From: Pyropia yezoensis
Lineage: Eukaryota; Rhodophyta; Bangiophyceae; Bangiales; Bangiaceae
Assembly: GCA_009829735.1 (NCBI GenBank)
Contig: CM020618.1
Span: 40,911,030 to 40,975,029 of the forward strand
DNA: 64,000 bases
Direction of reading: 5' to 3'
A program made the translations under genes and the position numbers. Numbering within the stretch: position 1 is the stretch's first letter; each line of letters opens with the position of its first letter. Positions 2,079 through 62,932 of the stretch are shown here, piece by piece. A model generated the notes under the pieces. That model made no database searches. It had not been told where the DNA came from and saw nothing but the letters and a program-made list of their open reading frames with translations.

Positions 2079-4022
2079 CTAGGCACGCATGCTAGACTCT
2101 CCCACTCCACGGCCCTCGCCCTCACGTGGAGGCGAGCGGCGAGACCCACGCCGATAACGGTCTCCACTCGTTGGAACGGGCGGCGGCTCCAAGTCGGAAC
2201 CGTCGCGCCCTTCACGGTCGCGCAAGTGGCGCCGACCGTGGCTACTCTTCTGCCTGGTCTTGCGCGCGAGTTTGCGACGCAGACGCTGGACAGACTCCGT
2301 CTCCGACGGGGTAGAGGACTCCGAGACGGAGTAAGACAACTCGTCTTCCGACACGGAGGGAGAGCGCCGCGAGTGTCGGCGACGACGGCGAGGAGGCGAG
2401 TATGCCCGGCTCGCGCGACGTTTGCCACGCCCAAGTGGGGCTGGCTGGGGCATAATAGCCCCAATGCGAGCCAACTCGGCTGTCATAAACTCCGCCACCG
2501 ACTCGCAGCTCGCGGTCGCCACTGCAGTACGAACGCGCTCCTCAAGTTGAGGAGTCTCGGAACTCTGGAGGGTTGCGGTCGACGCGGCCAACCAGGAAAT
2601 GGTGCGCACCAACGTGGTGATCATCATCTCTGAGGTTAGAGGCGTGGGCGGTAACACCAACTTGGGGTATACCGTCAGGAGGGTGGCCCCCAAGTTGGGG
2701 GACACCGGGGTGGATGACTCCACGGCCACGCTGATCGGGATGTTTCCGTGAGGCTGGAAAGGAACAGGAGGAAGCGGAGGGGCACGCCGAGGTGGCGGTA
2801 CCCGGGTGTAACTGCGACCCCGACTTGGGGCCCCCGCAGTAGGTTGAGTCATATGGTCATCATATGAGGGCACAGCCATAACTATGGGCTTGTCCGGGGG
2901 TGGCGCAGTGTGGCGATCCACCCCCGGGGCATACGGGTAGTCCCCGATGCCCAACCCCTCTCGTAGGACCACTCGGCCGTCGTGAAGTTCACGAGCGACC
3001 CACACGAACTGGCGAAGTGCGCCATCGTCCTTGGGCCCACGAGTAGGGCGGCGCAACCTGTGCTCAATGCTTTCCCACTCGATAAACTTATGGAGCCGGA
3101 GCATCTCCTCAAGTAGAGTGAGTTGTCCTGATGAGCACCCCTCAGCAACTAGCTGAGGGGTGAGCTGTTCCAAACCTTGGATGAGCCGGAGGGGGAGATG
3201 CCAGAGCATCCCCCGCCGCTGAACACAGGACACCCAGGTCGACATGACGTCGAGCAGCCACTGGGTGGCCAACATGGCCCACACCAGGTGATCAGGGCCA
3301 GCCGTCAACATGACGGAGCCGAAGTGGTCAAGCAACCGTGGCAGCAACGCCGGGAACCCGTAGGGGACCTCAACTTGAGGCCACCACTCGGGCTTCTTCG
3401 GATAGTACTGCTCCTTACTGGCAGCAGACTGTTGAGGAAACTCGAGTTGAGCCGAGGTCACCAAGTAGGGACCTCGCCGGAAGTCTTTCTCCATCCGCAC
3501 ATCAAAGTGATGAGTGTGCGGATCGGCCTCGTGGAGGCACGGGGGGCGAGTTGCCACCGCGTCCCAAGTAAAGGTCGGCAAGTCGCCGGGACCCGGGATA
3601 GTTCCCCCGCGGTCCACCATGGCCTTGGCACGCTGAACGTCCTCAACCTCCTCATCGTCCAGGAAGGCAAACTGGTCCGTCCTGAAGCCGGCAGGGAACC
3701 CGACCCTACGGGGATACTTCTCCCGTAGGCGGTCCCATACCCGACCCATCGCTGCGCCAAGTCGGCCACAGCGAAGAACAGTCAACCCCTCCTCATAAAG
3801 AGCCCAAGCGGGGTAAAACCATCGCCCCAAGGCCTCACGCGGGACAACTTGTCCCGCCCCCGAGGGAGACCCCGCCGTCAACCCAAAGCCGGGTGACGCG
3901 GGAGTCCCATCCCCCGGAGCGATCGCGGAGCCCCCGCCGGAAGTCCCGGCGGGTGCTGCACCGTAGGTGGTGTCCTCCATACGCTCATCTAGAGAGCCCG
4001 TCTCCACTCCCGGGGTCGCCAT
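2079..4022 (-). CDS. Antisense accessory ORF of LTR retrotransposon A1, unknown function
   Basis: A 647-codon ORF on the strand opposite pol, between pol and the 3' LTR. The start is the first in-frame ATG (MATPGVETGS); the frame is open for 57 further codons upstream but only with a non-ATG first codon. Residues 1-60 are Gly/Ala/Pro/Ser-rich. Residues about 65-350 look globular and Trp-rich, with landmarks FGSV (234-237), HLP (275-277) and EWES (315-318). Residues about 455-525 are helical. Residues about 533-647 form a basic, acidic and serine mix resembling an RS-type tail (YSPPRRRRRHSRRSPS). I recognise no known domain. The ORF stays open in both A copies and has a divergent relative in element C. 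Accessory antisense ORFs near the 3' LTR are known in some plant elements, but homology to those is not claimed. A structural, nucleic-acid-binding or host-countering role is only conjecture. Confidence 0.75.
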   Translation of the reverse strand: MATPGVETGSLDERMEDTTYGAAPAGTSGGGSAIAPGDGTPASPGFGLTAGSPSGAGQVVPREALGRWFYPAWALYEEGLTVLRCGRLGAAMGRVWDRLREKYPRRVGFPAGFRTDQFAFLDDEEVEDVQRAKAMVDRGGTIPGPGDLPTFTWDAVATRPPCLHEADPHTHHFDVRMEKDFRRGPYLVTSAQLEFPQQSAASKEQYYPKKPEWWPQVEVPYGFPALLPRLLDHFGSVMLTAGPDHLVWAMLATQWLLDVMSTWVSCVQRRGMLWHLPLRLIQGLEQLTPQLVAEGCSSGQLTLLEEMLRLHKFIEWESIEHRLRRPTRGPKDDGALRQFVWVARELHDGRVVLREGLGIGDYPYAPGVDRHTAPPPDKPIVMAVPSYDDHMTQPTAGAPSRGRSYTRVPPPRRAPPLPPVPFQPHGNIPISVAVESSTPVSPNLGATLLTVYPKLVLPPTPLTSEMMITTLVRTISWLAASTATLQSSETPQLEERVRTAVATASCESVAEFMTAELARIGAIMPQPAPLGRGKRRASRAYSPPRRRRRHSRRSPSVSEDELSYSVSESSTPSETESVQRLRRKLARKTRQKSSHGRRHLRDREGRDGSDLEPPPVPTSGDRYRRGSRRSPPREGEGRGVGESSMRA

Positions 4023-4360: not shown

Positions 4361-4829
4361 TGTGGCAGTATTGACCCCCAGGTAGGGGGGCAACACGTGC
4401 CATGCAAGGGGCGGCAGGCCACTAGCCTGATCCGTTCCTCCCCCTGCATTTGGGTCCATATTCCCTAAGTTTGGGATAGTTAGCTTAGTAGTAAATCCAA
4501 CTTGGATTTGAGGGTCTTCTGCATTTATCGTCTTGGATTTTCGTGTGGCCCGGTGGGCAGGTGCTGGGGTGGGAGATTCTGAGTGGCGAGATTCTGAGTG
4601 GACCCTGGGGGGATAAGGGGAGGGACAGCGGGGCTTGGCCCTGCGTCCCCGTCCCGACCAAGAAACTGTTGGACCACACACCATCCTCTTGTTTGTCCGT
4701 GGGGGGTTTTCCCCACAACAGGGACAGAATGTGTGCGACTTGCACTTCTTCCGGTTCCCCCAACACGGGAGGCAGCCCTTGCACACCGCCCCAACTTGGG
4801 TGCCGTGTGTGCATGTGGTTTTTGCCACA
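4361..4829 (+). repeat. 3' LTR of element A1 (469 bp)
   Basis: It begins TGTGGCAGTATTGACC and ends TTTTTGCCACA, giving a short terminal inverted repeat TGTGGCA/TGCCACA with TG..CA ends. It matches the LTRs at 46071-46539 and 54979-55448 throughout, with scattered substitutions. The polypurine tract lies immediately upstream. The right flank is a cytosine-rich run (ccccccccccggggg). Confidence 0.93.
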
Positions 4830-17400: not shown

Positions 17401-18896
17401 GCTAGGTGCGGAGCGTGGGGGTGGTAGGGGGGGGAGGTTGGGGGGGGGGAAGCGGCGGCGGGGTGGGCGATGGCGGCGTCGGCGGCGGCTGCGACGGCGG
17501 CCCCCCGCGGTGGTCGCACCACCGTGGCTGCCCGTCGTGGCGCCAACCGTTTCCAGTATCGGTAGTACCCGACGGCGAGCGCCGGCGCACAGTAGCAGCT
17601 CGCAGCTGCGCGCGGCAGTGAACAGGAGCGCGCCCGCTCGCATGGCGGCGGAACGAGCGGGTACGAGAGCGAAGGTTAACTACAGGCCAGTACACAGAGG
17701 AGTGATAAGGGGTCAAAAGGGGAGTTGCAGTATGTACAGGTCAGCTGGGCTGACTGGAGGCAGCCTCGCCCGATAGGCGAACTCATCCCCCAGCGTCGGT
17801 CGGTGACGCAGTGTATCCGAGTTCGCCCCTCCGAGGGGCGAACAGCGATTCCACCAGTGCAATCGAAGGGCGAACTCAAACTCGTTTAATCATATACCAT
17901 TGCAGGGAGGGTGGCTGTCGTTTACAGGCGGGGCCAAGCGCAGCAGCCCCCGGACGCGCATGGTGGTGTGCTAGAAGGGTGGCACGGTCGTGAGGTGTTG
18001 GGGATGTTGCCAGCGCACAGGCGTCCATGATGAGAGGTCAAGAGGGGTTGGGGGGGAGGTTAACAGACAGTCGTCCCCAGCTCAACGTACGCAGATCACC
18101 TACACGTGCTGGATGGTACCGTACCGTATCTACGTGCACATCCACCGCACGCCCGTGAAGAGCCTGGGAAAGGAGCCTCGCACGCGGTTCCTCTTGGACG
18201 GCTGTGCAACAGGTTGAAGAACCAGCCACCGCCCGTCCAGCACAGCATCGGACGCTGCCCCTTGCCCGGCAGGCCGTGGACGGGACACGATTTTTCCTCC
18301 CAAGCTACAGGTGGCTGGATTGCTGCGCTGGCGGCTCGCGCCGCGGCACGACAGGCGTCGGGGTGTGCCTGTGGGCCGTCGCCAGCAGCAGCTGTCGCCG
18401 ACGTCGCCAGCAGCAGCTGTCGCCGACAGTCGAGATGGGTGAACGGGGTACATACCTACTGCAGCAGCTGCATGGCTTTTTTTGAGAGAACGAGCTGTAT
18501 GTATATACCGTAATTGTACAATGAAATTTTAAGTACAGTACATTTGGTGCGATTCTTCTCTCCTTTTTTCTTGTTGTTCCCGCGTGACCCCGCTACCTTT
18601 GGTGCTCTTCCCCCCCAGCCGCACGCCACACCCATAGGCTTGGCCAGGAAGGTTTGAGGGGCGCCTCCCCACATGTACTGTATGTACACACAAGCGTGGG
18701 CCGGCGGCGACGGTTTGCCCCCGCCCCCTCTGCCACGTCCCCTCCCCCCCGCCGCCCTTCCTTGACAAGACAGCCGGCGAGCCGCACACGGCCATCTCAA
18801 CGGCGTCCCCGTGCCTCGACTACTGTCCCGCTGCCACCCGCGGGGGGGAGCGACCGTCCGCGGCGGGCACGTGGAAAGGTGCACCTTTTCCCCAGC
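17401..18896. other. Intergenic region with one perfect hairpin, no gene recognised
   Basis: The left part is G-rich (GGC/GGT runs). From about 17630 to 18550 composition is more even, and short frames occur (for example 17990-18217) with no recognisable motif. The AT-rich patch at 18480-18560, near the stop of the minus-strand gene at 18897, may be that gene's 3' UTR. Confidence 0.45.
17821..17843. repeat. Perfect 10-bp-stem palindrome
   Basis: The sequence GTTCGCCCCT-CCG-AGGGGCGAAC folds into a perfect 10-bp stem with a 3-nt loop. The half-site GGCGAAC recurs at about 17776 and 17871, and AGGGGCGAACT also occurs at about 16188. It may be a regulatory palindrome or a transposon-end remnant. 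Confidence 0.6.
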
Positions 18897-45821: not shown

Positions 45822-46070
45822 GGGGAGCTACGGGCCACCCTGTTCGCGGGAGTACCCAATGTAGGGACCCTATAGGCCCTCCACGTGGGGGGACCTCGTA
45901 GAGATCGCGTGGTACCCCTGCGCCCACCTTCCTAGCGTGGACGATGGGGCCGATTTGGCTCTTCGGGCTTTTACTGGCTTCCGATTGGTCCCCTCCTATG
46001 GAGATGGGACCGGGTCGCCATTGGTTTTGGGGCCCATATTGGGATTCCCAGTGTATGGGGTTTTCCCCTG
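45822..46070. other. Residual element B sequence left of A2
   Basis: 249 bp of moderate GC with no recognisable frame. It ends directly at the A2 5' LTR with TTTTCCCCTG. Confidence 0.5.
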
Positions 46071-46539
46071 TGTGGCAGTATTGACCCCCAGGTACGGGGG
46101 CAACACGTGCCATGCAAGGGGCGGCAGGCCACTAGCCTGATCCGTTCCTCCCCCTGCATTTGGGTCCGTATTCCCTAAGTTTGGGGTAGTTAGCTTGGTA
46201 GTAAATCCAACTTGGATTTGAGGGTTTTCTGCATTTATCGTCTTGGATTTTCGTGTGGCCCGGTGGGCAGGTGCTGGGGTGGGAGATTCTGAGTGGCGAG
46301 ATTCTGAGGGGACCCTGGGGGGAGAAGGGGAGGGACAGCGGGGCTTGGCCCTGCGTCCCCGTCCCGACCAAGAAACTGTTGGACCACACACCATCCTCTT
46401 GTTTGTCCGTGGGGGGTTTGCCCCACAACAGGGACAGAGTGTGTGCGACTTGCACTTCTTCCGGTTCCCCCGACACGGGAGGCAGCCCTTGTACACCGCC
46501 CCAACTTGGGTGCCGTGTGTGTAAGTGGTTTTTGCCACA
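46071..46539 (+). repeat. 5' LTR of element A2 (469 bp)
   Basis: TGTGGCAGTATTGACC to TTTTTGCCACA, with TG..CA ends. It differs from the 3' LTR near GGTACGGGGG, at several sites in the 46166-46200 stretch, and at the end (GTGTAAGTGG). Confidence 0.93.
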
Positions 46540-46561: not shown

Positions 46562-46658
46562 GAGGTAAACTTTACCTCCGGGTGTACCCGGGTGTAGGGG
46601 GCCCTCTGTCCCAGAGGAACGGTGGACTTGGACCGTGTCATACGGATCGTCAGCCAAC

Positions 46659-48605
46659 ATGGCTAGTTCGGACCCCCCGTCGTCCGGGGAGTACACGGGT
46701 GACGCACGTACTTCAGTGCCTTTGAATACTGGTGAGACACAGGTGGGTTTACCTGGGGTCGCAGAGGGACTAGAGGTCTCACAAGCCAGCAGGACTGGAA
46801 GTGCGGGCGGGCAACAGGCCACCCCGACTCAGTCGGGAGTTCGCTCGGGTGACACTTCTGATGTGGGTGGGCCGAAGTCTGGCCACCGTGTGGTACACTC
46901 AACGGGAACGTCCCAAGGGGTGAGGACTGTCCCCGCAGGTTCCACTCGGGTTGGAGCCAACTTTGGCTTGGAGCCGTCGCCAACTAGGCTTTCGGGGGAT
47001 GGCGGACCACCGTTGGTCGGCGATGGGCTCGCGCCCATGCCCCCGGTTGAGACCCCTGAGGAACGTGGTTACCCCTCAGGTGGACTCCCGGAGGCGGACC
47101 GAGACTCAACTGGAGTCGTCAATCCACTCCTCGCGGAAACTGTCCGTCGGAAGGCGACCAATGTGTTGCGGCAGACTTTGCCGGACCTAGTGGTCACGAT
47201 GACGAATACTATTCTGAATCAGATTGTGGCGAGTTTGCCAGATGGCCTTAATGTCCAGACCGGATCGGGGCTTTCGAGCCCGCAGGCGCAGGGGGAATCC
47301 CTCCTCCCGCCTATCTCGGGTCGCCCCGAACAGGGGGCGACACCTGTGACTCCCAACGAGGGAGCCACACCATACTCGGTGGGGCGTACGCCCTTCATGG
47401 GGGAGTTCCCCCCGGAAACGCCGGCGGCTACACCAAGCGCGCCGCGCCAGACTATGGGCACTGAGGGTGAACTTGCCCCAGTGCCACAGTGGCTGTTCCC
47501 TCAACGTGAGGTGCCGCCCAAGATCCAGGTAGCCAACCCGGTCTACCGGAGGATCTTTGATTGTGAGACCTACGCCCTCCACAATAGGTCGGTGGCGTAT
47601 GGTCCTGACCAGGCCCAAGCCATGGGCCGTGCCAAGAAGAATGCACTTCACTCTTTTGGGCACGAAGCGGAGTGGGATGGAACTCCCCCCCTCCGTGTCT
47701 TTGAGTTCTTACGTCGTTTCACAAAAGCCTGTGACGACAATGCCATAAGTGAAGGCATGGCTTTTTACATGCTACAGGAGTTTACGAAGGGAGACCTGCG
47801 GACAGAACTTATGTCAGTCATGCCCAGCTCCTCAAGTGGAGGCGCTGGTGAGGTGACGTCCTATTTGGAGCTCGTCAACTGGTTGTTGAGAGCCATGGTT
47901 GATGAAGCGGCGTTGGCTTCTCAAGTCGAGGAGTTCACGCAAGCCCATCAGGAAGAGGCGGAGGACGAGTTGTCCTTTGCGGAGCGAGTCCGTAAGCTCA
48001 ACAATCTTTGTGGGTTTCTTCATCCACAAGCGGTGGTGAAGAGTCGGTTTGTGGAGGGACTCCATTGGTCAGTGCGGATGGAGACCCGGGAGCATAACAC
48101 TGCCCGGGCGACCCTGGCCGAGTTGGCTAGGTTCGCCTACCGCAGAGGCGAGGCCTCCCGCAAGTTGCGGGAGGAACAACGCCAGGAGCGTCAAGCCGAG
48201 TTGGCCAAGGAACGGGAGGAGGCGCGCCAGGCCAGAGAGTTGAGAGAGGCACGCCGAATCCGCAAGGAGAGGGTGGTAGCTGCCGTGGGAACTTCCCAGG
48301 GTGTCTCTTCGTCTTCCCCAGTTGGGAAGACCCGTCCGGGAACTGACAATCGGTGTTGGAACTGCAACTCCGATGGACACTGGGCATATGATTGCCCCAA
48401 GTTGAGTAAACGCATCCAACAACTTGTTAGGAATGCGAGTAAGAAGTCGGCTACGAACGAAGTACGATCACGCCGCGAGGGTGGGTCTCGACCGGTGGTG
48501 GCGGTTGCCACACCCTCCGCGGAGGGGGCGGACACGTCGTCCTCGGACTCGTCGTCTTCTCCTTCGTCCTCGGATTCGGACGCCAAGTCGGCGGGAAACG
48601 AATGA
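46659..48605 (+). CDS. gag: Gag polyprotein of element A2
   Basis: 648 codons from ATG 46659 (MASSDPPSSGEYTGDA) to TGA 48603-48605. The N-terminal 280 residues are Gly/Ser/Pro/Thr-rich. The capsid-like core is at about 320-480 (FEFLRRFTKACDDNAISEG, LQEFTKGDLRTEL, SYLELVNWLLRAM, FVEGLHWSVRMETREH). A basic helical stretch rich in Arg/Glu (RQERQAELAKEREEARQA) leads to one zinc knuckle CWNCNSDGHWAYDC (CX2CX4HX4C), which packages RNA. A Ser/Asp-rich tail ends the protein. The stop overlaps the pol start as ATGA. No internal stop was seen, so this Gag is intact. Confidence 0.92.
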   Translation: MASSDPPSSGEYTGDARTSVPLNTGETQVGLPGVAEGLEVSQASRTGSAGGQQATPTQSGVRSGDTSDVGGPKSGHRVVHSTGTSQGVRTVPAGSTRVGANFGLEPSPTRLSGDGGPPLVGDGLAPMPPVETPEERGYPSGGLPEADRDSTGVVNPLLAETVRRKATNVLRQTLPDLVVTMTNTILNQIVASLPDGLNVQTGSGLSSPQAQGESLLPPISGRPEQGATPVTPNEGATPYSVGRTPFMGEFPPETPAATPSAPRQTMGTEGELAPVPQWLFPQREVPPKIQVANPVYRRIFDCETYALHNRSVAYGPDQAQAMGRAKKNALHSFGHEAEWDGTPPLRVFEFLRRFTKACDDNAISEGMAFYMLQEFTKGDLRTELMSVMPSSSSGGAGEVTSYLELVNWLLRAMVDEAALASQVEEFTQAHQEEAEDELSFAERVRKLNNLCGFLHPQAVVKSRFVEGLHWSVRMETREHNTARATLAELARFAYRRGEASRKLREEQRQERQAELAKEREEARQARELREARRIRKERVVAAVGTSQGVSSSSPVGKTRPGTDNRCWNCNSDGHWAYDCPKLSKRIQQLVRNASKKSATNEVRSRREGGSRPVVAVATPSAEGADTSSSDSSSSPSSSDSDAKSAGNE

Positions 48606-51600
48606 CCATTGGAGCTGGTCGTCCGAAGCTCGCAACGGCAGCCTCGGCCAAGTGGGTCAAGAGGACGAACCAACCGTGCCGGATACTGCGGCGACCTAAG
48701 AGAGTCCGCCTACCTCGGGTAGGACTCCCCAAGAACGTAAACCCACGTCGGGTCATCGCGGTGCCGACGGGTGAGAACTTCCAGGTGGCTGGACGGGTGC
48801 AACTTGCCCCCGGCCGCGCCTGTTGTGCCCGTATCGTACTTGATACCGGGTCAGGAGCCTCCTTGATACGCAAGTCGCTATTACCAAAGGAGATAAAGCT
48901 CCCACGCTGGAAGTCTAAGGCTGACCATCTGATCGATATCAATGGTGGGGTACTTCCCATCGTTGGTGCCGTGACCCTACCAACTAGGTTGGGGACCCAT
49001 GAGGTCGACGTGACCTATGGTGTAGTTGAGAATATATCGGTACCCCTGCTTCTGGGTACCCCCGATGTTGTTCCACAAGTGCCTTTGATTTGTGGCCCTG
49101 AGTATTGGGTCAGGTTGAAGAATGGGGAAACCATCCCCATCCTTGGTAAGGGAAAGTCTGTGGCTCCTGTGGCAGTCTCACAGTCGAAGCCTGTTTGTTC
49201 TATGAGGGAAGGGTTTACTGCTACCCTGCGTCTAGCCCGTAAAGTCACGTTGCCCCCCAACTCGGTGGCGCACGTTGACGTTGTAACTGATTATACGGGG
49301 AACGGGTTGGTGCACCCTTACCCCCGTCTTGCTCGCAAGCACCAAGTGCATGTTGCCCTTGGCACGATGGACTCCAAAGCCGGAGTCCCGTGGAGGATCC
49401 AGGTGATGAACCTGAGCTCGTCGCCCAAGTACTTCAAGTCGGGAGCCAAGTTCGGCTATATCGACCAACACGAGGGACCGGTAGTAGCGGTCACCCTCAA
49501 CGCGGGCGCAAGTAGCGACCCGAAGTCCGGAAAGCAGAAGCATCAAGCCAAGTCGGCCGCCTCTCCTCGGCCCCATGTGAACATGGAGGGTGTCCCACCC
49601 AGGTTGAGGGTTCAAGTTGAACGCCTCTTGGACCAATATCACAAGTTGTGGGATGGTCAATTGGGACTCATGAGAGCCACCCAACACCGGATCGAGTTGA
49701 AGCCCGGTGCACCCTCTATACGCCAACAACCGTATAGGGGAGGACCCCGTTCAAGAGCCCTCGTTAAGGAGCAAGTTGCTCGCATGGAGGCCCTCGATGT
49801 GATCGAGGCCAGTAACGCCGAGTGGGCGAGTCCGGTGGTTATCGTCCCCAAAGTTGATGGGACCCCCCGGTTCTGTATCGACTACCGTAAGCTCAACGAG
49901 AGCACGGTGAAGGACAGTTATCCCCTACCTAGGATGGACGACTGTCTGGAATCCCTGGGGGAGGCGAACGTGTTCTCTACCCTGGACTGTAACGCGGGGT
50001 ACTGGCAAATTCCCATTGCCCCGGAGGACAGGCATAAAACTACCTTTACCTGTCACTGTGGTACCTACCAGTGCAAGCGTCTACCGTTTGGCCTGTGTAA
50101 CGCGCCGGCAACTTTCCAGCGCGCTATGGGCATGATTCCGGCCGGAGTACGGTGGTAGATCTGTCTCGTGTACCTAGACGATATCATTGTGTTCTCCCGA
50201 AGTCCGGAGGAACACATTGGCCATCTTGGCCAGGTGCTCAAGCTACTTACTGACGCCGGTGTGTCACTGAAGGCGAGTAGGTGCCACCTCTTCACTCAAG
50301 AGGTGGAATACTTGGGACATGTTGTCCGTCCGGGGCGTCTCAGTGTCAACGAGAAGAACTTGAGGGCCATCCGTAAGGCTCAGTACCCCCGGACCCAGAC
50401 CCAGATCAGGAGCTTCCTCGGGATGTGTAACGTGTACCGACGTTTTACCAAGGGCTTCGCCAAGGTGGCCAAACCGTTGAATGAGTTAGTGAGCTCACCG
50501 CTACCGAAGAACCTGCCTCCCCCAAGTCGGGTGGAGCAGGAATCCTTTGAGACTCTTCGGGACCTTCTGCTGAAGCCCCCTATCCTTGCTATTCCCAGGT
50601 TGGGAGGCCACTACATCCTGGATGTGGACGCTAGCTACGACCAACTTGGTTGTGTGTTGCTTCAGCAGCAGCCGGACAAGGAGTACTTGCCGGTGGGATA
50701 CTTCAGCAAGGGGCTGAACTCGGCCGAGAAGAGCTACGGAGTCACCGAGTTGGAAGGACTCGCAGTGGTGTGGGCGGTGACGTCACTTCGTCACTACCTA
50801 GAGGGTGAGAAGTTCCTCATCCGCTGTGACCACCGCGCGTTGCAGTTCATCTTCAAGACGGACTGTACGAACACTCGTCTCAACCGGTGGAGGGTGCGAC
50901 TGGCACCCTTCAACTTTGATATTGAGTACCGACCTGGTAGGCAACATGCCCTTGCCGACGGCCTCTCTCGGGTACCTACCGAGGGGCTTGACACTAACTC
51001 AGTCGATGAGGACATCCCCATCGTGGGGGTAGTCACGCGCTCGGGTCAGGCGTTGAACCCCGAGGCGCCAGGGAACAAGAAGTACTTGCCCCTGTCCCTG
51101 AACGAGGTGGTGAAGGTTCAGGCCGAGGATCCCTTCTGCAAGTCGCAGAGGGATACACTGGATACAGTGGCGGAGACGCGGTTCTTTCTGGGAGACGATG
51201 GCCTCCTCATGAGGAGGGGGGTATTCCAGGGGACAGAACAACTTGTCGTCCCCGCGTCCCTCAAGGACAGTATCCTTGAGAGGGAGCATAACGCTCCCAC
51301 AGGTGGACACCTGGGGTCTAGTAAACTGTACCAGACCCTGAGGACCAGGTACTACTGGCCGTCCATGGTGGTGGACATCTACAGTCGGGTGGCTGCCTGC
51401 ACAAGTTGTGCACGGATCCGTCTGATGGAACGGCGGCCTACTACGGCTATGCTATTGTTCCCGGCCAAGGAGCCCTTTGCCGCGTTGGCGATGGACGTCC
51501 TTGGGCTACTGCCAGTGACCGAGGAGGGCAACCAGTACCTCCTGGTTATCTGTGACCGCTTCACGAAACTTACGCGAGCAATCCCACTGGCAGAGATCAC

Positions 51601-52585
51601 GGCCATGTCGGTCGTGTCAGCCTTCCTAGATCACTGGGCTGCCGCGTATGGCATTCCGGATAGTACACTATCTGACAATGGACCACAATTTGCGTCTGTA
51701 CTGTTTCAGGGAGTGCTGGATATGTTGGGGGTTAAGGCAAACTATGCCACCCCCTACCACCCACAAACTAATGGGCAGGTGGAGCGCTTCAACAAAACTA
51801 TTGTTAGGCAGCTGCGCCACTATGTGAGTGAGCACGTGAAGACGTGGGACCAATACATTTCCATTCTTACTACTGCCTACAATTCGCAGGTTCACTCATC
51901 TACCAGGGAAGTACCCCTAGCTTTTGTGACCCCCCGTCGCGTGCGGTCTATTGCCGTGCGGCGGTCGCTCCCAACTAGGGAGGGTGGTGGCAGTACGCCT
52001 ACTTCTACTGAGAGTAAGGCGGAGTTCGCTGCTAGGCTCGAAAACCTTATCCCTAAAGTCAGGGCTGAGATGGACAAAGCACAAACGCGCTACAAGCGTA
52101 CCTTTGACAAAAAGGTGCGCAACGCCAAGCATGTCCCCGAGCAGGGTGACTGGGTGCTGGTTCACTCACACACCCCAACTGGGGGTAAGTTGGTATTCCA
52201 GACGAAGGGGCCGTACCAGGTCCTTCGTACTGATGGGCGGCGCTTCACCATCGAAAGTGACGATGGGGTCCGCACAGTGAACGGACAGGGCGTGGTCAAA
52301 GTTGCACCACCGCCTGCAGGCGACCCAGCTCGGGCGCGTGCGTTGGAAGCGTGGCGCCTCCCCTCACTGCCTGCGGCCAAACAGGGCCCGCAGGAGTACG
52401 TGTTCGATAAGTTCATCGACCACGGATGGGATGAGGACACTACCCGCCACATGTTGAGGGTGCGTTGGTTTGGCTACAAAGCCAAGGATGATACGTGGGA
52501 GTATGTGGAGGACCTTCCTGCTGAGAGGGTCCGGGCGTACTGTGCCCGGAATGAGATAGACCCTAACAGCCCTCCCTCAACGTGA
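48602..52585 (+). pseudogene. pol: Pol polyprotein of element A2 with one nonsense codon in RT
   Basis: The frame starts at ATG 48602, overlapping the gag stop by ATGA, and ends TGA 52583-52585, with a single in-frame TAG at 50156-50158. Order: aspartic protease with LDTGSGASLI (Asp at residue 81); reverse transcriptase with WASPVVIVPKVDG, FCIDYRKLNESTVKDSYPLP, LPFGLCNAPATFQRAM and the catalytic YLDD at 50171-50182; RNase H (LDVDASYDQLGC); integrase with HHCC zinc module and DDE residues in AMDVLG, SDNGPQF and GQVERFN; chromodomain (RVRWFGYKAKDDTWEYVEDL). The stop lies five codons before YLDD. Translation would end inside the RT palm, so this copy cannot make full Pol unless the stop is read through. 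Otherwise the frame is open. Confidence 0.92.
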
Positions 52586-52696: not shown

Positions 52697-54640
52697 CTAG
52701 GCATGCATGCTAGACTCTCCAACCCCACGGCCCTCGCCCTCTCGTGGAGGCGAGCGGCGAGACCCACGCCGATAACGGTCTCCACTCGTTGGAAGGGGCG
52801 GCGGCTCCAAGTCGGAACCGTCGCGCCCTTCACGGTCGCGCAAGTGGCGCCGACCGTGGCTACTCTTCTGCCTGGTCTTGCGCGCAAGTTTGCGACGCAG
52901 ACGCTGGACAGACTCCGTCTCCGACGGGGTAGAGGACTCCGAGAGGGAGTAAGACATCTCGTCTTCCGACACGGAGGGAGAGCGCCGCGAGCGTCGGCGA
53001 CGACGGCGAGGAGGCGAGTATGCCCGGCTCGCGCGACGTTTGCCACGCCCAAGTGGGGCTGGCTGGGGCATAATAGCCCCAATGCGAGCCAATTCGGCCG
53101 TCATAAACTCCGCCACCGACTCGCAACTCGCGGTCGCCACTGCAGTACGAACGCGCTCCTCAAGTTGAGGAGTCTCGGAACTTTGTAGGGTTGCGGTCGA
53201 CGCGGCCAACCAGGAAATGGTGCGCACCAACGTGGTGATCATCATCTCTGAGGTTAGAGGCGTGGGCGGTAACACCAACTTGGGGTATACCGTCAGGAGG
53301 GTGGCCCGCAAGTTGGGGGACACCGGGGTGGATGACTCCACGGCCACGCTGATCGGGATGTTCCCGTGAGGCTGGAAAGGAACAGGAGGAAGCGGAGGGG
53401 CACGCCGAGGTGGCGGTACCCGGGTGTAACTGCGACCCCGACTTGGGGCCCCCGCAGTAGGTTGAGTCATATGGTCATCATATGAGAGCACAGCCATAAC
53501 TATGGGCTTGTCCGGGGGTGGCGCAGTGTGGCGATCCACCCCCGGGGCATACGGGTAGTCCCCGATGCCCAACCCCTCTCGTAGGACCACACGGCCGTCG
53601 TGAAGCTCACGAGCGGCCCATACGAACTGGCGAAGTGCGCCATCGTCCTTGGGCCCACGAGTGGGGCGGCGCAACTTGTGCTCAAGGCTCTCCCACTCGA
53701 TAAACTTGTGGAGGCGGAGCATCTCCTCAAGTAGAGTGAGTTGTCCTGATGAGCACACCTCAGCAACTAGCTGAGGGGTGAGCTGTTCCAAACCTTGGAT
53801 GAGCCGGAGGGGGAGGTGCCAGAGCATCCCCCGCCGCTGAACACAAGACACCCAGGTCGACATGACCTCTAGGAGCCACTGGGTGGCCAACATGGCCCAC
53901 ACCAGGTGATCAGGGCCAGCCGTCAACATGACGGAGCCGAAGTGGTCAAGCAACCGTGGCAGCAACGCCGGGAACCCGTAGGGGACCTCAACTTGAGGCC
54001 ACCACTCGGGCTTCTTCGGATAGTACTGCTCCTTACTGGCAGCAGACTGTTGAGGAAACTCAAGTTGAGCCGAGGTCACCAAGTAGGGACCTCGCCGGAA
54101 GTCTTTCTCCATTCGCGCATCAAAGTGATCAGTGTGCGGATCGGCCTCGTGGAGGTACGGGTGGCGAGTTGCCACAGCGTCCCACGTGAAGGTCGGCAAG
54201 TCGCCGGGACCCGGGATAGTTCCCCCGCGGTCCACCATGGCCTTGGCCCGCTGTACGCCTTCGACCTCCTCATCGTCCAGGAAGGCAAACTGGTCCGTCC
54301 TGAAGCCGGCAGGCAACCCGACCCTACGGGGATACTTCTCCCGTAGGCGGTCCCATACCCGACCCATCGCTGCGCCAAGTCGGCCACAGCGAAGAACAGT
54401 CAACCCCTCCTCATAGAGAGGCCAAGCGGGGTAAAACCACCGCCCCAAGGCCTCACGCGGGACAACTTGTCCCGCCTCCGGGGGAGACCCCGCCGTCAAC
54501 CCAAAGCCGGGTGACGCGGGAGTCCCATCCCCCGGAGCGATCGCGGAGCCCCCGCCGGAAGTCCCGACGGGTGCTGCACCGTAGGTGGTGTCCTGCATAC
54601 GCTCATCTAGAGAGTCCGTCTCCACTCCCGGGGTCGCCAT
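52697..54640 (-). CDS. Antisense accessory ORF of element A2, unknown function
   Basis: 647 codons on the strand opposite pol, start MATPGVETDSLDERM at ATG 54640. It is collinear with the A1 copy at 2079-4022, with scattered substitutions and no indel that breaks the frame. The same plan is present: low-complexity start, Trp-rich central region with FGSV, HLP and an EWES site, helical region, RS-like basic tail. Substitutions include conservative changes and some in the tail. The frame is open although pol of the same copy has a stop, which suggests that it was functional when the copy inserted or that it tolerates change well. The start is about 340 bp inside the 3' LTR, so antisense transcription from or near that LTR would express it. 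Confidence 0.75.
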   Translation of the reverse strand: MATPGVETDSLDERMQDTTYGAAPVGTSGGGSAIAPGDGTPASPGFGLTAGSPPEAGQVVPREALGRWFYPAWPLYEEGLTVLRCGRLGAAMGRVWDRLREKYPRRVGLPAGFRTDQFAFLDDEEVEGVQRAKAMVDRGGTIPGPGDLPTFTWDAVATRHPYLHEADPHTDHFDARMEKDFRRGPYLVTSAQLEFPQQSAASKEQYYPKKPEWWPQVEVPYGFPALLPRLLDHFGSVMLTAGPDHLVWAMLATQWLLEVMSTWVSCVQRRGMLWHLPLRLIQGLEQLTPQLVAEVCSSGQLTLLEEMLRLHKFIEWESLEHKLRRPTRGPKDDGALRQFVWAARELHDGRVVLREGLGIGDYPYAPGVDRHTAPPPDKPIVMAVLSYDDHMTQPTAGAPSRGRSYTRVPPPRRAPPLPPVPFQPHGNIPISVAVESSTPVSPNLRATLLTVYPKLVLPPTPLTSEMMITTLVRTISWLAASTATLQSSETPQLEERVRTAVATASCESVAEFMTAELARIGAIMPQPAPLGRGKRRASRAYSPPRRRRRRSRRSPSVSEDEMSYSLSESSTPSETESVQRLRRKLARKTRQKSSHGRRHLRDREGRDGSDLEPPPLPTSGDRYRRGSRRSPPREGEGRGVGESSMHA

Positions 54641-54965
54641 GGCTCTCCCCAAGTTGGGGCGAGACGCTCTGGCTATCGCGGCACGAGACCCGCCTCGAGT
54701 TGAGGGGGACTCGGATCTTGGGTATACGGGTGGCCTCCCCAGCGTGGGGCGGCCCAGTGGAAGGTGAAGGGGAGGTGGTGGTGATGGTGAAGTGTGAACT
54801 GAGGAGAGCAAGCTGCCGAGTGGGCAAGCTTGAGGAGAGGGGCGGTCAACGTGACCGCCTCCACATCCACGTTACGTACTCAAGGGGGGACAGCAAGTCG
54901 CGCCCCCAACGCCGAGACGTGCGTTTACGCACCCCCTCACAGGGCCGACCGGGTCGGTCGGAACT

Positions 54966-54978
54966 GAGGAGAGGGGAG
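54966..54978 (+). other. Polypurine tract of element A2
   Basis: GAGGAGAGGGGAG, 13 consecutive purines directly before the 3' LTR. Confidence 0.85.
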
Positions 54979-55448
54979 TGTGGCAGTATTGACCCCCAGG
55001 TAGGGCGGCAACACGTGCCATGCAAGGGGCGGCAGGCCACTAGCCTGATCCGTTCCTCCCCCTGCATTTGGGTCCATATTCCCTAAGTTTGGGATAGTTA
55101 GCTTAGTAGTAAATCCAACTTGGATTTGAGGGTTTTCTGCATTTATCGTCTTGGATTTTCGTGTGGCCCGGTGGGCAGGTGCTGGGGTGGGAGATTCTGA
55201 GTGGCGAGATTCTGAGGGGACCCTGGGGGGATAAGGGGAGGGACAGCGGGGCTTGGCCCTGCGTCCCCGTCCCGACCAAGAAACTGTTGGACCACACACC
55301 ATCCTCTTGTTTGTCCGTGGGGGGGTTTGCCCCACAACAGGGACAGAGTGTGTGCGACTTGCACTTCTTCCGGTTCCCCCGACACGGGAGGCAGCCCTTG
55401 CACACCGCCCCAACTTGGGTGCCGTGTGTGCTTGTGGTTTTTGCCACA
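54979..55448 (+). repeat. 3' LTR of element A2 (470 bp)
   Basis: Same ends as the 5' LTR (TGTGGCAG, TTGCCACA), with one extra G in a G-run near 55320. Directly after it RT sequence of element B begins (AAGTGAAGAGGATGAATG). Confidence 0.93.
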
Positions 55449-58342
55449 AAGTGAAGAGGATGAATGAAGCTAAGGTGATCCGACCTTTGATGTCGGAGTG
55501 GGGCGCCCCAGTCGTCATCGTACCGAAGAAGGATCAAACCCTTCGGATCTGCATCGATCATCGACGCCTCAACTTGGTCACCAAGAAAGACTTGTACCCT
55601 TTACCAAGGATGGATTTGTGTATCGACACACTGGGGGAAGCCGCAGTGCTTACCATTATCGACAGCAATGCCGGGTACTGGCAGATCCCAGTGGCAGAGG
55701 AAGAGAGCCCAAGACAGCGTTCGTCTGTCGCAGTGGAGTGCACGAGTTCCTAAGGATGCCCTTCGGATTCTCCAACGCCCCCGCAACATTCCAGCGCGCC
55801 ATCGACATTACACTGCCGGGAGTGAAGTGGCGTAATTGCCTAGTTTACCTGGACGATGTCATTGTCTTCTCGCGTAACATGGATGATCATGTGCAGCATG
55901 TTGACGAGGTACTCACCCTCTTGCGGAACGCCGGGGTAGCCCTGCGTCTCAAGAAGTGCGCTTTCTGTCAATAGACCGGCGGGTACCTGGGTCACCAAAA
56001 AAAAACAAGGTAAACTGGGAGTATTCGAGGCTAATACCCGGGCACTCCGGGACGCGCGATACCCGACCACCCAGACACAGCTGAAGAGCATTCTAGGGAT
56101 GTGTAAGGTACATCCACGGTTCGTCAAGGACTTCGCTCGTATAGCCAAACCGATAACGGTGCAGACAAGCACCACCTTGCCAAAGGTACTTCAACCTCCC
56201 TCGAAGAGCGAGGGAGAGGCGTTCGAGCTGCTCAAGCAAGCCCTGTTAGCCCCATCCGTGCTTGCGTTGCCGCATAGACGTGGGACCTTCGTCTTCGATG
56301 TCAATGCATGCGATACCCAAGTGGGATGCACCTTGTTACAGGGAGATACACTCATTGGTACCGATACTGCTATCCCGGACCTACATACCGTGGGGTACTT
56401 CAGCCGGACACTCAACCCGGCTGAGCATAACCGTACTGCCACCGAGCGCGAGTGCCTCGGAGTCATATGGGCAGTAAAACTGCTCTGGCCATACCTGGAG
56501 GGATCCAGGTACCTCGTGAGGTCCGACCACGAACCTTTATGATCGCTCCTGAACCTTGGTGACAAGGATTCCGACAGCCATGGACGGCTAGCTCGATGAA
56601 GGCTAAAGATGGCCGAGCACGATTACCGGACCATTTACAAGGCCGGCGCTACCCACCATCTAGGAGACGCGCTGTCTCGACTCAATACACCGAGTGGGGA
56701 TACCCGACAAGTGGACGAGGACATCCCTGTGGTACCGGTTTCCATGGTGGGTAACGCCACGCAAGGTACTGTTGACCGCACCATGGTACACCGCGCGTGC
56801 CCACTGACTCTCGCGGACTTCCGCGAGGCACAAGCCAATGACGATGACTGTAGACGCCATTGCGCTAACCTCCTGGCCGGCACTGCCGGCATCTTCTCCG
56901 AGAATGAGGACGGCTTCATATACCGGTGGGCACCCGCCGATGGACGGCATCAGGTCGTGGTTCCCGTGTCCTTACGGCAAGCCGTCATGGAACGAGAACA
57001 CGAGAACTCTACAGCCGGACACCCGGGGGGTTCGCGCATGTTCGCAGCGATGCGAAGGATTTTCTACTGGCCAGCAATGGCCGTCGACGTAGTCGAACAC
57101 GTGCGGGGATGCCACCTGTGTGCACGGAATCGTATAAGTCTTCAAAAACGGGCATCCGCTATAAAACTGCTCCCACCCGATGGGCCCAACGAGCAAGTCG
57201 CTATCGGCATACTCGGGCCGCTTCCGGTGACGGAAGAAGGGAACAGATGTATCCTGGTCATGTCTGACCGCTTCACCAAGCACTCACTTCCGGTAACGGA
57301 AGAAGGGAACAGGTACATCCTGGTCATGTCGGATCGCTTTACTAAGCTGTCACGGGCAGTAGCAATCCCGGACGATACGGCCTACACCATCATGAACGCA
57401 GTGGTTGACCACTGGATCACTTCTTGCGGAATGATGAAGCAACTCCTCTCCGACAACGGAGCAAGCCTGACTTCAGCATTTTGGACTAAGGTCATGGGCA
57501 TGTTCGGGATCGAGCCACGTCGGGCGTCCGACTACCACCCGCAAACCAACGGGCAGGTGGAGCGGTTCAACCGCACCATCGTCAGAACTCTCCAATGCTA
57601 CGTGGCGGAGCACACGAACTCATGGGACAGGCTCCTGTCCGTACTGACCCTGTCATCCAATCCCAGGCCCCACCGGAGCACGAACATTGCTCCACTGGAG
57701 TGGGTCATGCCAATAGGCGTCGGTAACATAACGCTGCCCCCGGGCAGATGCACTCGGTATGACATACCGAAGGGCCGACCTGCCGAACGGATCCACTTAG
57801 CTTGGTTGGCCAAGCTATCGTGGATGATACCTAAGCTCAAGGGCTCCCTTGACCGTACACATCTTCGATACAAGAAGAGCTTCGACGCCCGACTACGGGT
57901 ACGCAACGAAACCCTGGTAACAGGTGACTGGGTCTTTATCAGACACCAGAAGCTCCGAGGGAACAAGCCTATGCAACCGTTCAAGGGACCGTACCAGATA
58001 CTACACAGAGATGATCACTTTGTCATCCTCCACTCCGATACGGAGATACAACGCATCAATCTGAATGATGTGACACCGGCTCCAAAACCGGAACAGCCTC
58101 AGCAGGTAACGGCTGGGTTGCTACATGAAACTCTTACCACCCACCGGTCAGATAACCCGGTGGGGACAGATGGAATCCCATACCAAGTAGAGAGCTCTTT
58201 CGGACACACCGATCCGGACCTACCAAGGCCCTGGTACGTCAAAGTAATGTGGGTCGGATACGATTCACCCACCTGGGAACAGGCGGCGAGTATACCCCGC
58301 CAGCTGCTCATGCCTTACATGAGGCGACGCCGTCTACTGTAA
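55449..58342 (+). pseudogene. pol: Pol of element B: RT, RNase H, integrase, chromodomain, decayed
   Basis: Sequence starts within RT (MNEAKVIRPLMSEWGAPVV, ICIDHRRLN, AGYWQIPVAEE). It shifts frame near 55715, then reads MPFGFSNAPATFQRAI and the catalytic YLDD (about 55848). A stop falls at 55972-55974 and another shift near an A-run at 55998-56006. RNase H follows, with a TGA at 56540-56542 and another stop near 56597. The integrase-chromodomain part is open from 56609 to 58342 (577 codons). In it the first catalytic Asp has become Gly (VAIGILGPL, against AMDILGPL in element A), and a 66-bp unit is duplicated (LPVTEEGNR.ILVMSDRFTK twice, 57221-57352). The second Asp (LSDNGAS) and the Glu (GQVERFN) remain. 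The chromodomain-like end is WYVKVMWVGYDSPTWEQA. This Pol is non-functional. Confidence 0.88.
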
Positions 58343-59368: not shown

Positions 59369-59556
59369 TCAGGGGGTACCCCCGCTGGTCGAAGGTGGCC
59401 ATTCACGCGTAGACGCGTACACTTCCATACTCCACCGGTCGGCAATCTCACGACGGTCAATCGCCTGAGTTACCTCAGTGCATAGCTCCACGAGAGTGCC
59501 TCGACCCGCCTCCACTTCCTCCAGGGCTAGCTGGAGTGTAGCACAATAGGAATCCG
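59369..59556 (-). pseudogene. C-terminal fragment of element B antisense accessory ORF
   Basis: On the minus strand, about 62 codons up to the TGA at 59369-59371 read LQLALEEVEAGRGTLVELC, then DRREIADRWSMEVYASTREW. They match the end of the element C antisense protein (LQKALEDVEAGRSTLVQLC). The rest is cut off exactly at 59557, where the LTR of element C starts. It shows that B carried the same accessory gene in the same convergent position. Confidence 0.8.
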
Positions 59557-59899
59557 TCGCACGTCCACTCTCAGGGAACACTCACCAAGGGGGATCGGCA
59601 CCAACGTCACCGGGAGGCCAAGGTTGCTGTCCTTGGAGCGCAAGCCACGGGACCAAGATGGGAGCCCAAATGGGAGGGGTTTGTTGTTCTACCTTGGCCG
59701 GCGGTGGATTCGCCACCGGCCCCCTCGTTATAAACCCTCGGAGACACTACTAACTACCCTCCACCCCAAGATGCAAGTCCCTCTGGTCATACGTAACTTA
59801 TAGATACCGTGACCAGCTCGGACTCTCAAATTGGAAGTTAAGGATTAGAAGTAGCCCCCCTGATATTAGGGTCACAATACGGTCATCCATATTGCTACA
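59557..59899 (-). repeat. 3' LTR of element C (343 bp)
   Basis: On the minus strand it begins TGTAGCAATATGG and ends TTGTGCTACA, and aligns along its length with the 289-bp LTR of B. It has an extra block of about 55 bp near its end. The polypurine tract lies directly before it. Confidence 0.88.
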
Positions 59900-59911
59900 T
59901 ATCCCCCCCTT
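59900..59911 (-). other. Polypurine tract of element C
   Basis: Minus-strand AAGGGGGGGATA directly precedes the LTR start, which identifies this LTR as the 3' one. Confidence 0.7.
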
Positions 59912-60484: not shown

Positions 60485-62932
60485 ATGTCCTATCCCCAGG
60501 TGCTTGAAGAGGAGGAAGACCTCCTGATCGGGGAGGAGATGGAGGACGACGCGCCTGTCGGTCCCGACGCCGCGCGTTACGGGGTGAGCTCGTCTGACGA
60601 CGACGGGCCTGCGGTGTCCGTCCGTCTGTCGGCCGGAGGACTGTCGTCCGTGTGCAGCGGCACGACGGTGCCGTCGGCCGGAGGTCAACCCGGCGGTCAA
60701 CCGCGCGTGGCGGCTTCTACCCCCTCTCTGCCGGCTGCCCGGATGGGGCCTGGTGCCGGTGCCGGCTCACCGCAGGTACCTCAAGATGGTCCGCCCTGCG
60801 GCGGAGGTGGCGACCCGCAGCCGACTCCGGCTGGTCAAGGTGGTCCGGGTGTCCGGGCGGTGACTCCTCGAGGCGGTCCCGACGTTGACGCGGGTGGTGG
60901 TGGCGGTGCGACACCCGGTGCCGTGGGTCAAGACGGTGCGGGTGTCCGCACGGCCGGGGCTCCGGCTCCGGAGGCTGTCCAAGTTCCTTCCACTTCCGAG
61001 GCGGGGGCTACGCCGACGGGTGGTGCCGGCGCCGGTACCATACCTGCGGTGCCGCCGGTGTCGAGCGGTCAAGACGCTCCTTCTCCCATGGCGGTTGACA
61101 CCGGGAGTTACTCCGGGCGGGCGCCCGCCCTTCTTCTTCCTCCTCGGCCTCGTCCATCTCCGACGTCGGCCCCTCTGCCGGTGGTGCGTCCCCCGGCGCC
61201 CCCGATTCTTCCTGGTCCTGCCCGGGTTGCCCCGTTGGGTGGCGGCGTCGCCGTGGCGGCGGGTCAACCCGCCATGTCGGTGTCCGACTTGGTGGCTCGG
61301 GTTCGAGGCCTCACGGTGCAAGAGTCGATGGAGTCCGATGGGCGTATGCGGGTGGACTTCCACCTGGTGCATCCCCGTGGAGAATCCTCCCGGCGCGTCA
61401 AGGTGGACCCGTGCTGGGAGCGGGAGTTGGTGCGGCTGGTCAACCAGCCGAACGCGGTCCGGGTGGAACACCATTGGATCCTGAGTCAGCCGGACGACCG
61501 GCATGCGCAGCTCTGGCGCACCCGGGTGGGACGGGGTGAGGTCTACCTCGACCCCAACTTCGGGGTCTGCGACTTGATTGCCCCCGCGTTGCCGCGGGAG
61601 ATTGACTACCCGGCTAGTGCTCGGGGGATTGCGGCGGCGGCGGAGCCGGTTGCGTTTGGGGAGACGGTGAGCCGTACCGGTCGGTATCCCGACTTTGACT
61701 ACTACCCGGGGGTACCCCCGTATCTGTTGTTGACGGCTCCCTACCCGCCCATGGCGGGGTTGAAGTCGGCGTCGAGTTGGCGACGTAACCATGGTGTCAT
61801 GGCGGATGCGTTCCGCACGGATATAACGTGTGCGTTGCAGACCGGCAACGGTCGTGCTCCGGTATACACTCCCGTGCGCCCGCCGCTATGGCAGGAGGGG
61901 TGGGAACCCGCCCCTGCTTTCCGGTTTGACACCGGCTCCTGCCTTCGCTACTTCGGGAGTGTGTTGGCCTCCCGGCCGGTCCACCCGTTGCAGGGTACCT
62001 TCACCCTTGAGGTTACCCTCGGGCAGGCTTCATCCTTCTTGCTGTCCGTCCGCCGGCAGGGTCGTCTGTTTCATCTTCCGACGGGTGTCCGTCGGCACAT
62101 CGCGCAGTTGGGCGTGGATCTGATAGCTGCCAAGACCGGGTTGGCCCGGGAGTTCGAAGCCCTGCTGGCTGTTCACGATGCCGTGAACTGGGCTGGGGTG
62201 TTGGCCCTTCCCCCGTACCGGGACCCGCAGGCTGGGGCTTCCCCCTTGCCTCGTCACTCGTTGCGTGTCCGGCGTACTCAGCCGGGTGAGCCTAGTTGCC
62301 ATGGGTGGGCGTCCACCGAGGCCGTTCCTGACCTGGGTATTCCCATGGTTATCCATGACCCTCTTCAGGTCCTTGCTCCGTGGTTCGGTAACCCGATGCC
62401 GGCGGCGGTTGGCCGTCGTCCCCGAGCGTGGGGCTCTGTGGGTGGGGAGCGTGAGGTGTCCCGTCGTCGGGCGGAGTACCGCCGTGGTTACGGTGGAGCC
62501 CCTTCGGTAGGGTCCTACCGGGCCTCGTATCAGGTGCCACCGGCTCCGGTGGTAGCCGTGTCGGCTCCTATGGCTCCTCTGGCTGCGCCAGTGTCACCTC
62601 CCGCCCCTGTCCTACATGACGGGGGTCCCCGTCTCTGGTATGAGGGCGTTGACGCCCTTGTTACCCGCGCCATGCGTGGGGGTCTCTCTGTTAGCTGGGG
62701 GGATATCCCCCCAGGTGCTGCGCTGGTTGGGTCAGCGCGTTGCTTCGGTGGCGTGCTGGACCGCCTCCAGAAAGCTCTGGAGGACGTGGAGGCTGGCCGC
62801 AGCACCCTCGTCCAGCTATGCACCGAGGTAACTCGGGTGGTCGACCGTCGTGACGTTGCCGACCGGTGGAGCACGGAGGTCTACGCGCTTACGCGTGAGT
62901 GGCCTCCCTCGGGCAGTGGGTCTACCCACTGA
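60485..62932 (+). CDS. Antisense accessory ORF of element C, unknown function
   Basis: 815 codons from ATG 60485 (MSYPQVLEEEEDLLIGEE) to TGA 62930-62932, convergent to the element's pol. Residues 1-270 are acidic and then Pro/Ala/Gly/Val low complexity. A probable globular region covers about 275-640 (RMRVDFHLVHPRGESSRRVK, LWRTRVGRGEVYLDPNFG, FDYYPGVPPYLLLTAPYP). Landmarks shared with the A-type protein are FGSV at 490-493, HLP at 530-532 and a conserved Trp at 569. The spacings of 40 and 39 residues compare with 41 and 41 in A. The C-terminal helical part (LQKALEDVEAGRSTLVQLC) matches the element B fragment. It lacks the RS-like tail of the A proteins. No known domain is recognised. The homology to A is tentative because identity is low. 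Confidence 0.75.
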   Translation: MSYPQVLEEEEDLLIGEEMEDDAPVGPDAARYGVSSSDDDGPAVSVRLSAGGLSSVCSGTTVPSAGGQPGGQPRVAASTPSLPAARMGPGAGAGSPQVPQDGPPCGGGGDPQPTPAGQGGPGVRAVTPRGGPDVDAGGGGGATPGAVGQDGAGVRTAGAPAPEAVQVPSTSEAGATPTGGAGAGTIPAVPPVSSGQDAPSPMAVDTGSYSGRAPALLLPPRPRPSPTSAPLPVVRPPAPPILPGPARVAPLGGGVAVAAGQPAMSVSDLVARVRGLTVQESMESDGRMRVDFHLVHPRGESSRRVKVDPCWERELVRLVNQPNAVRVEHHWILSQPDDRHAQLWRTRVGRGEVYLDPNFGVCDLIAPALPREIDYPASARGIAAAAEPVAFGETVSRTGRYPDFDYYPGVPPYLLLTAPYPPMAGLKSASSWRRNHGVMADAFRTDITCALQTGNGRAPVYTPVRPPLWQEGWEPAPAFRFDTGSCLRYFGSVLASRPVHPLQGTFTLEVTLGQASSFLLSVRRQGRLFHLPTGVRRHIAQLGVDLIAAKTGLAREFEALLAVHDAVNWAGVLALPPYRDPQAGASPLPRHSLRVRRTQPGEPSCHGWASTEAVPDLGIPMVIHDPLQVLAPWFGNPMPAAVGRRPRAWGSVGGEREVSRRRAEYRRGYGGAPSVGSYRASYQVPPAPVVAVSAPMAPLAAPVSPPAPVLHDGGPRLWYEGVDALVTRAMRGGLSVSWGDIPPGAALVGSARCFGGVLDRLQKALEDVEAGRSTLVQLCTEVTRVVDRRDVADRWSTEVYALTREWPPSGSGSTH

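Follow-up and report, generated by a model that had tools for sequence, protein, structure and literature searches.

Several Ty3/gypsy LTR retrotransposons of plants carry additional open reading frames (ORFs) in antisense orientation between pol and the 3' LTR, an arrangement termed aORF-3R, of which TRP28 of Retand, gene23 of Grande, RIRE2 and PvRetro13 are described examples (PMC7264820; PMC11963269). For Retand, antisense TRP28 ORFs are reported in 97% of clusters, with tandem repeats at that site in about half of the elements (PMC11963269), while Grande gene23, as told in PMC7264820, is nuclear and has its own antisense promoter. The same review states that the function of antisense genes of LTR retrotransposons is not known. 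Outside plants, the fungal element Boty is described as having an antisense ORF between pol and the 3' LTR (PMC7264820), a likeness drawn here from that description only. Two other systems serve purely as analogies, i.e., HBZ of HTLV, an LTR-retroelement gene for a nuclear regulator that runs antisense to gag-pol (PMC11963269), and CERV of the C. elegans element Cer1, an extra LTR-retrotransposon protein required for nuclear export of the genomic RNA (PMC10309623). A gene opposite to the transposase is also described for a DNA transposon of Ectocarpus (PMC12477816). Within the open-licence part of PMC, we found no paper on such an antisense gene in red-algal elements; one could exist beyond it.

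Here, we describe long antisense accessory ORFs in elements from a 64,000-nucleotide stretch of Pyropia yezoensis DNA at 40911030-40975029 of contig CM020618.1, the whole of which is referred to as the window, and from the remainder of the genome. Antisense ORFs at this site are already known in plant and fungal elements, and the present gene is a variant of that arrangement. It shares with the plant aORF-3R genes, as these are described in the cited sources, its location, antisense orientation, many copies, conservation and a product without known function. One of its lineages (E) also resembles Retand, as described, in carrying tandem repeats from the start of the accessory ORF to the 3' LTR (positions 5298-5676 of L037). 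Unlike Retand, which is described as a non-chromovirus, the elements studied here have a chromodomain-like pol end and a red-algal host, and their accessory proteins match neither TRP28 nor any other Pfam family above cut-off (A, C, D and E). This adds to the known antisense genes one whose protein family has no recognised domain, found in chromodomain-type elements of a host that is neither plant nor fungus.

Antisense reading frames between pol and the 3' LTR

The window contains two elements of one family (A1 and A2) and parts of two others (B and C), the features of which are listed in Table 1.

Table 1. Features of the A, B and C elements, in window coordinates.
Feature	Position	Strand	Remarks
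A1 pol end	3..1967	+	Open frame running off the window
A1 antisense accessory ORF	2079..4022	-	ATG to stop, 647 codons, no internal stop
A1 3' LTR	4361..4829	+	
A2 5' LTR	46071..46539	+	Matches the 3' LTR at 459/469 aligned bases
A2 gag-like ORF (stop to stop)	46569..48605	+	CCHC zinc knuckle
A2 protease-like region and first part of RT (stop to stop)	48443..50158	+	
A2 rest of RT, RNase H, integrase, chromodomain-like end	50159..52585	+	
A2 antisense accessory ORF	52697..54640	-	ATG to stop, 647 codons, no internal stop
A2 leader, 3' LTR to accessory ATG	54641..54978	-	Putative 5' end of the antisense RNA
A2 3' LTR	54979..55448	+	
B integrase and pol end	56600..58342	+	
B accessory ORF, C-terminal end	about 59375..59536	-	Cut by the C insertion; remainder outside the window (L045)
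C 3' LTR	59537..59900	-	364 bp; 98.6% to its partner, L045 2996-3359
C antisense accessory ORF	60485..62932	+	815 codons; C element on the minus strand

The initial annotation had noted ORFs of 647-815 codons antisense to pol in A1, A2 and C, with ends close to the pol stop, and the ORF coordinates confirmed this. All three lie in the interval from pol to the 3' LTR, on the strand opposite pol. C is inserted in inverted orientation, which places its ORF on the plus strand; as the pol end of C is read from the minus strand, this ORF is antisense to pol as well. The distance from the pol stop (52585) to the accessory ORF stop (52697) is 111 nt in A2, and the corresponding gap in C is about 0.48 kb. 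The spacing FGSV-40-HLP-40-Trp, said to be common to A and C, could likewise be read from their alignment (F234-H275-W316 in A and F584-H624-W663 in C). The statement that B retains the end of the gene was correct for the C-terminal end, but the B copy is incomplete: the insertion point of C is inside the B accessory ORF, and the rest of the split copy lies outside the window at L045 3349-5836. Aligned with C residues 351-859, this remainder shows 73% identity, and it contains stops and a shift in frame.

For each element, the longest ORF in the pol-to-3' LTR interval was compared with those of 300 dinucleotide shuffles, including two further elements (D and E) from elsewhere in the genome. 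None of the 300 shuffles reached the observed length in A2 (724 vs a shuffle maximum of 487), C (909 vs 438) or D (995 vs 781); in E, one of 300 did so (608 vs 729). The A2 ORF as a shadow of a sense ORF was ruled out, there being no sense ORF that covers it. Within the A2 leader, positions 54641-54871 are an open frame in which codon periodicity is absent.

Distribution, descent and selection

The genome searched comprises 107.5 Mb in 11 contigs. Among the six regions downstream of reverse transcriptase (RT) matches that were examined first (L033-L038), two contained a long antisense ORF directly after pol, i.e., L036 (D, 995 aa) and L037 (E, 608 aa), with stop-to-stop distances between pol and the accessory ORF of 156 nt and 41 nt, respectively. 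No accessory homologue was found, at E values up to 0.01 in the stretch examined, in the other four (L033, L034, L035 and L038), which have another RT type. These are close relatives, the three pols compared being 88-97% identical, and the gene-less outgroup is therefore in effect one family. Six more regions downstream of RT (L039-L044) yielded two E copies (L040 and L043, about 98%), a 73% relative of E with one internal stop (L042) and two C copies sitting in E elements (L039 and L044). The last, L041, is an E-like element in which the 3' part of pol is open and the accessory gene is deleted save its start, so that elements may not need the gene, or may have its product provided in trans. 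The two families originally proposed to carry the gene proved too few, since it is present in at least four lineages (A, B/C, D and E). Its element context comprises both LTRs in A2, the 3' LTR of C and, in E, an LTR-like end at about 6020-6476 of L037; in D, the gene lies beside pol.

The E protein retrieved 73 matches from its own genome, with identities of 100% to 42%, and the A protein retrieved 68, all of them near-identical and full-length, this list being the best 68 of 3563 candidates ranked by protein score. The presence of the gene in many copies was judged on these two lists. Stops in most copies, which the initial annotation had set against a functional gene, were absent from A (0/68, in the score-ranked list) but did occur in E, where 38 of the 73 rows contained an internal stop and 35 did not, many rows being old fragments. 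In seven E-related stretches, pol was found convergent beside the ORF in all five that are intact (L054-L058), and none was found in the stretch examined of the two diverged ones (L059 and L060).

Homology between the A and C proteins, which the initial annotation had proposed to seek by profile comparison, was detected both by hhalign of the C group against the A group (83% probability, E 9e-6) and by BLASTP (E 5e-8). The BLASTP alignment was collinear in the core, as were those of A with E (2e-7), A with D (1e-5), D with E (1e-18) and A with a Pyropia vietnamensis relative (5e-7). The C-E match (8e-4) involved a different region of E (residues 98-215) and was discounted, and C-D gave an E value of 0.09. 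Similar relationships emerged from profiles, in three of which the E' row had been wrongly trimmed: C, P. vietnamensis, D, E and E' together found A at 2.8e-14 (best shuffled sequence, 0.64); A, D, E and E' found C at 1e-4 (0.16); and D, E and E' found A at 5e-7 (0.0012), with C not among the matches listed. The fourth profile (A, C and P. vietnamensis), which is unaffected by the E' row, found E at 4e-7, though with 98-174 as the first listed stretch; for D it reached only 0.05 (best shuffled, 0.56). On these sequence comparisons, the link of C to D and E runs mainly via A.

Searches of the protein database, which score only candidates sharing most words and can therefore miss distant relatives, returned one cluster (95%) for A, and one cluster plus two P. 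vietnamensis proteins (49% and 45%) for C; a 9-row alignment used as query had only the 95% cluster of A among its matches. In the integrase tree, the other RT type was set apart (100/100) and D joined the E group (97/99), with no settled branching for A and B. The accessory-protein tree grouped D, E and E' (96/96), and C with P. vietnamensis. The two trees concur on one informative shared fork, that of D with E; a long-branch warning was issued by the tree tool for the pol tree. Divergence is faster in the accessory protein than in pol, D and E being 27% identical in the former vs 54% in the latter.

To quantify selection on the antisense frame, dN/dS was calculated by the Nei-Gojobori method. 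A1 and A2, a pair not chosen by score, gave 0.25; A1-L005 (0.07) and A2-L005 (0.14) are biased low, L005 having been taken from the list ranked by protein score. For E and L042, a pair chosen by RT, the ratio was 0.18, with 104, 82 and 261 differences at the first, second and third codon positions, and that for the integrase of the same pair was 0.21. E compared with its 86-87% and 73% subfamilies gave 0.14-0.21, and those subfamilies compared with each other 0.17-0.18, the five copies used being rows picked for having no stops. Higher values were obtained for B-C (0.34 in the core and 0.39 over the whole, the decay of B included) and C-L039 (0.40, from 29 changes). Within subfamilies, dN/dS was 0.53-0.88, and synonymous to nonsynonymous codons in E copies numbered 3:10, 4:6 and 7:16; these ratios reflect near-neutral decay after insertion, and the constraint therefore acts on the replicating lineage. 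Codon variants among 29 A copies (44 synonymous, 7 nonsynonymous) were not taken as evidence, as these copies had been ranked by protein score. In four of the other frames, most ratios were 1 or higher (0.62-4.6); lower values (0.11-0.54) were obtained in the complementary frame with shared third positions, which, however, contained 16-27 stops.

Neither A1-A2 nor the comparisons between E subfamilies thus gave a ratio near 1, the outcome that had been named as speaking against the gene. Since the ratios between subfamilies are like that of integrase, the sequence data indicate that the accessory gene is old and is under purifying selection in the antisense frame, at an integrase-like dN/dS. 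Together with the homology between A and C, this agrees with the initial proposal of an old accessory gene common to both.

Nature and possible role of the product

The product, described from the outset as unrecognised, matched no Pfam family above cut-off (A, C, D, E and P0010 searched), and A and C likewise matched nothing in PHROGs or NCBIfam. Pfam rows at E values up to 1, far below the cut-offs, were DUF641 for A and a ribosomal N-terminal domain for E. Membership of the TRP28 family was rejected, PF04195 (Transposase_28) giving no row up to an E value of 1 in A, C, D, E or P0010. A search of the PDB gave no match for C and a single row for A, HIV-1 Rev (E 0.34), which we read as a reflection of Arg-rich composition; tblastn of the A protein against phages gave none. 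Basic, RS-rich segments occur in A (residues 501-600, net charge up to +15) and D (residues 801-900, up to +25), and E ends in a short RS stretch, while no RS tail is present in C or its P. vietnamensis relative. No RNA-recognition domain was found by Pfam in A, C, D or E. AlphaFold2 models, built from alignments without D and E, suggest at low confidence a helical core (mean pLDDT 35 for C residues 358-909, 7 rows, and 38 for A residues 60-346, 6 rows).

Selection on the antisense frame implies that the frame is translated, from which we infer that an antisense RNA exists. With moderate confidence, we favour the reading that the gene is an antisense-translated accessory gene of one chromodomain-type Ty3/gypsy clade, and that its product handles RNA or chromatin in the nucleus. 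The gene would predate the split of lineages A, B/C, D and E. An antisense RNA would start in or just inside the 3' LTR, with a predicted leader of 338 nt in A and 584 nt in C, and run convergently towards the pol end, and the accessory protein would be translated from it. The protein would act in the nucleus on the element's own RNA or chromatin, in a Rev-like or SR-like mode of regulation. This putative nuclear role is proposed because of the basic RS tails and by analogy with Grande gene23; since C and its P. vietnamensis relative have no RS tail, a role in nuclear RNA handling may not extend to every lineage. The convergent layout suggests competition between transcription of the two strands, in which case synthesis of the accessory protein and of full-length genomic RNA would be alternatives within one copy. 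A wider generalization is more speculative, and we regard it as tentative and rather doubtful: that red-algal chromodomain elements have kept one antisense nuclear-regulator gene through deep lineages, as part of a mutually exclusive transcription switch, and that plant, fungal and retroviral elements have reached the same design independently with unrelated proteins. For experiments, natural variants are on hand in the form of four lineages and one copy that has lost the gene, with a clear selection signal, and the high-copy families, A with its many near-identical copies among them, make the role of antisense retrotransposon genes testable.

A possible though unlikely alternative is that the protein counters host silencing, with the product of an antisense promoter acting on host chromatin or small-RNA pathways such that copies are transcribed. 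The basic tails and the fast divergence of the protein relative to pol would fit conflict with the host. However, no domain with such a known role was found by Pfam, and dN/dS points, at this resolution, to constraint rather than to positive selection. Less probable still is a structural protein, i.e., a second particle or nucleocapsid-like component that packs the element RNA. The basic, Arg-rich tails and the helical core of the low-confidence models are in keeping with it, as is a weak BLAST match, in a five-protein comparison, between the E accessory protein and the A gag (E 0.008 over 74 aa). The A accessory protein also matched A pol weakly (E 0.011). Against a structural role, a gag ORF encoding a CCHC knuckle is already present in the A element, and gag was not recovered with profiles built from the accessory core (best E 8.8); a separate antisense RNA as the source would also better suit a regulator.

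It is very unlikely that the antisense RNA is itself the functional product, controlling copy number through dsRNA, with the ORF being incidental. The convergent layout makes sense-antisense overlap likely, and dsRNA regulation is discussed for such loci in PMC7264820, but amino-acid selection in the antisense frame is not predicted by a function of the RNA only; the RNA could still have a second role beside the protein. An env-like protein in antisense orientation is scarcely credible: the location between pol and the 3' LTR is that of env-like ORFs, but the orientation is opposite to that of the env-like ORFs described in PMC7264820, and no transmembrane-like segment, i.e., a 19-residue window with a Kyte-Doolittle hydropathy of at least 1.6, was found in any of five accessory proteins. 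Finally, chance open frames in GC-rich DNA can be dismissed in view of the cross-lineage homology, the codon-frame selection and the shuffling results for A2, C and D, even though long open frames are common in the window and one E shuffle reached the observed length.

Further features of the elements

The two LTRs of A2 differ by 2.1%, and the right side of A2 carries RT sequence of B. The sequences flanking A2, TTCCCCTG at window positions 46063-46070 and AAGTGAAG at 55449-55456, do not form a target-site duplication, which suggests recombination between copies. An in-frame stop in the RT (50156-50158) interrupts A2 pol, the A2 accessory ORF being intact.

At the C-terminus of pol, the chromodomain match was above the Pfam cut-off of 25.1 bits in E (37.3 bits) and below it in A (20.7 bits) and D (19.3 bits). 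In D pol (L036 1-3420; P0014), the chromodomain-like part is followed, at residues about 991-1060, by a match to the Pfam family Dam (DNA N6-adenine methyltransferase; 29.9 bits vs a cut-off of 28.1). A comparable extension at the C-terminus of E pol gave no Pfam match.

The LTR-like ends of L037 (6020-6476), L041 (3091-3547) and L042 (4203-4649) are 92-93% alike, compared with 77-84% for the pol and accessory regions of these elements, as if the ends had been exchanged or constrained. The B integrase contains a 66-nt in-frame duplication (window 57221-57352), the copies of which are 85% alike, and at 16820-17416 of the window a 199-nt unit is repeated three times in tandem, with units 80-92% alike to the first.
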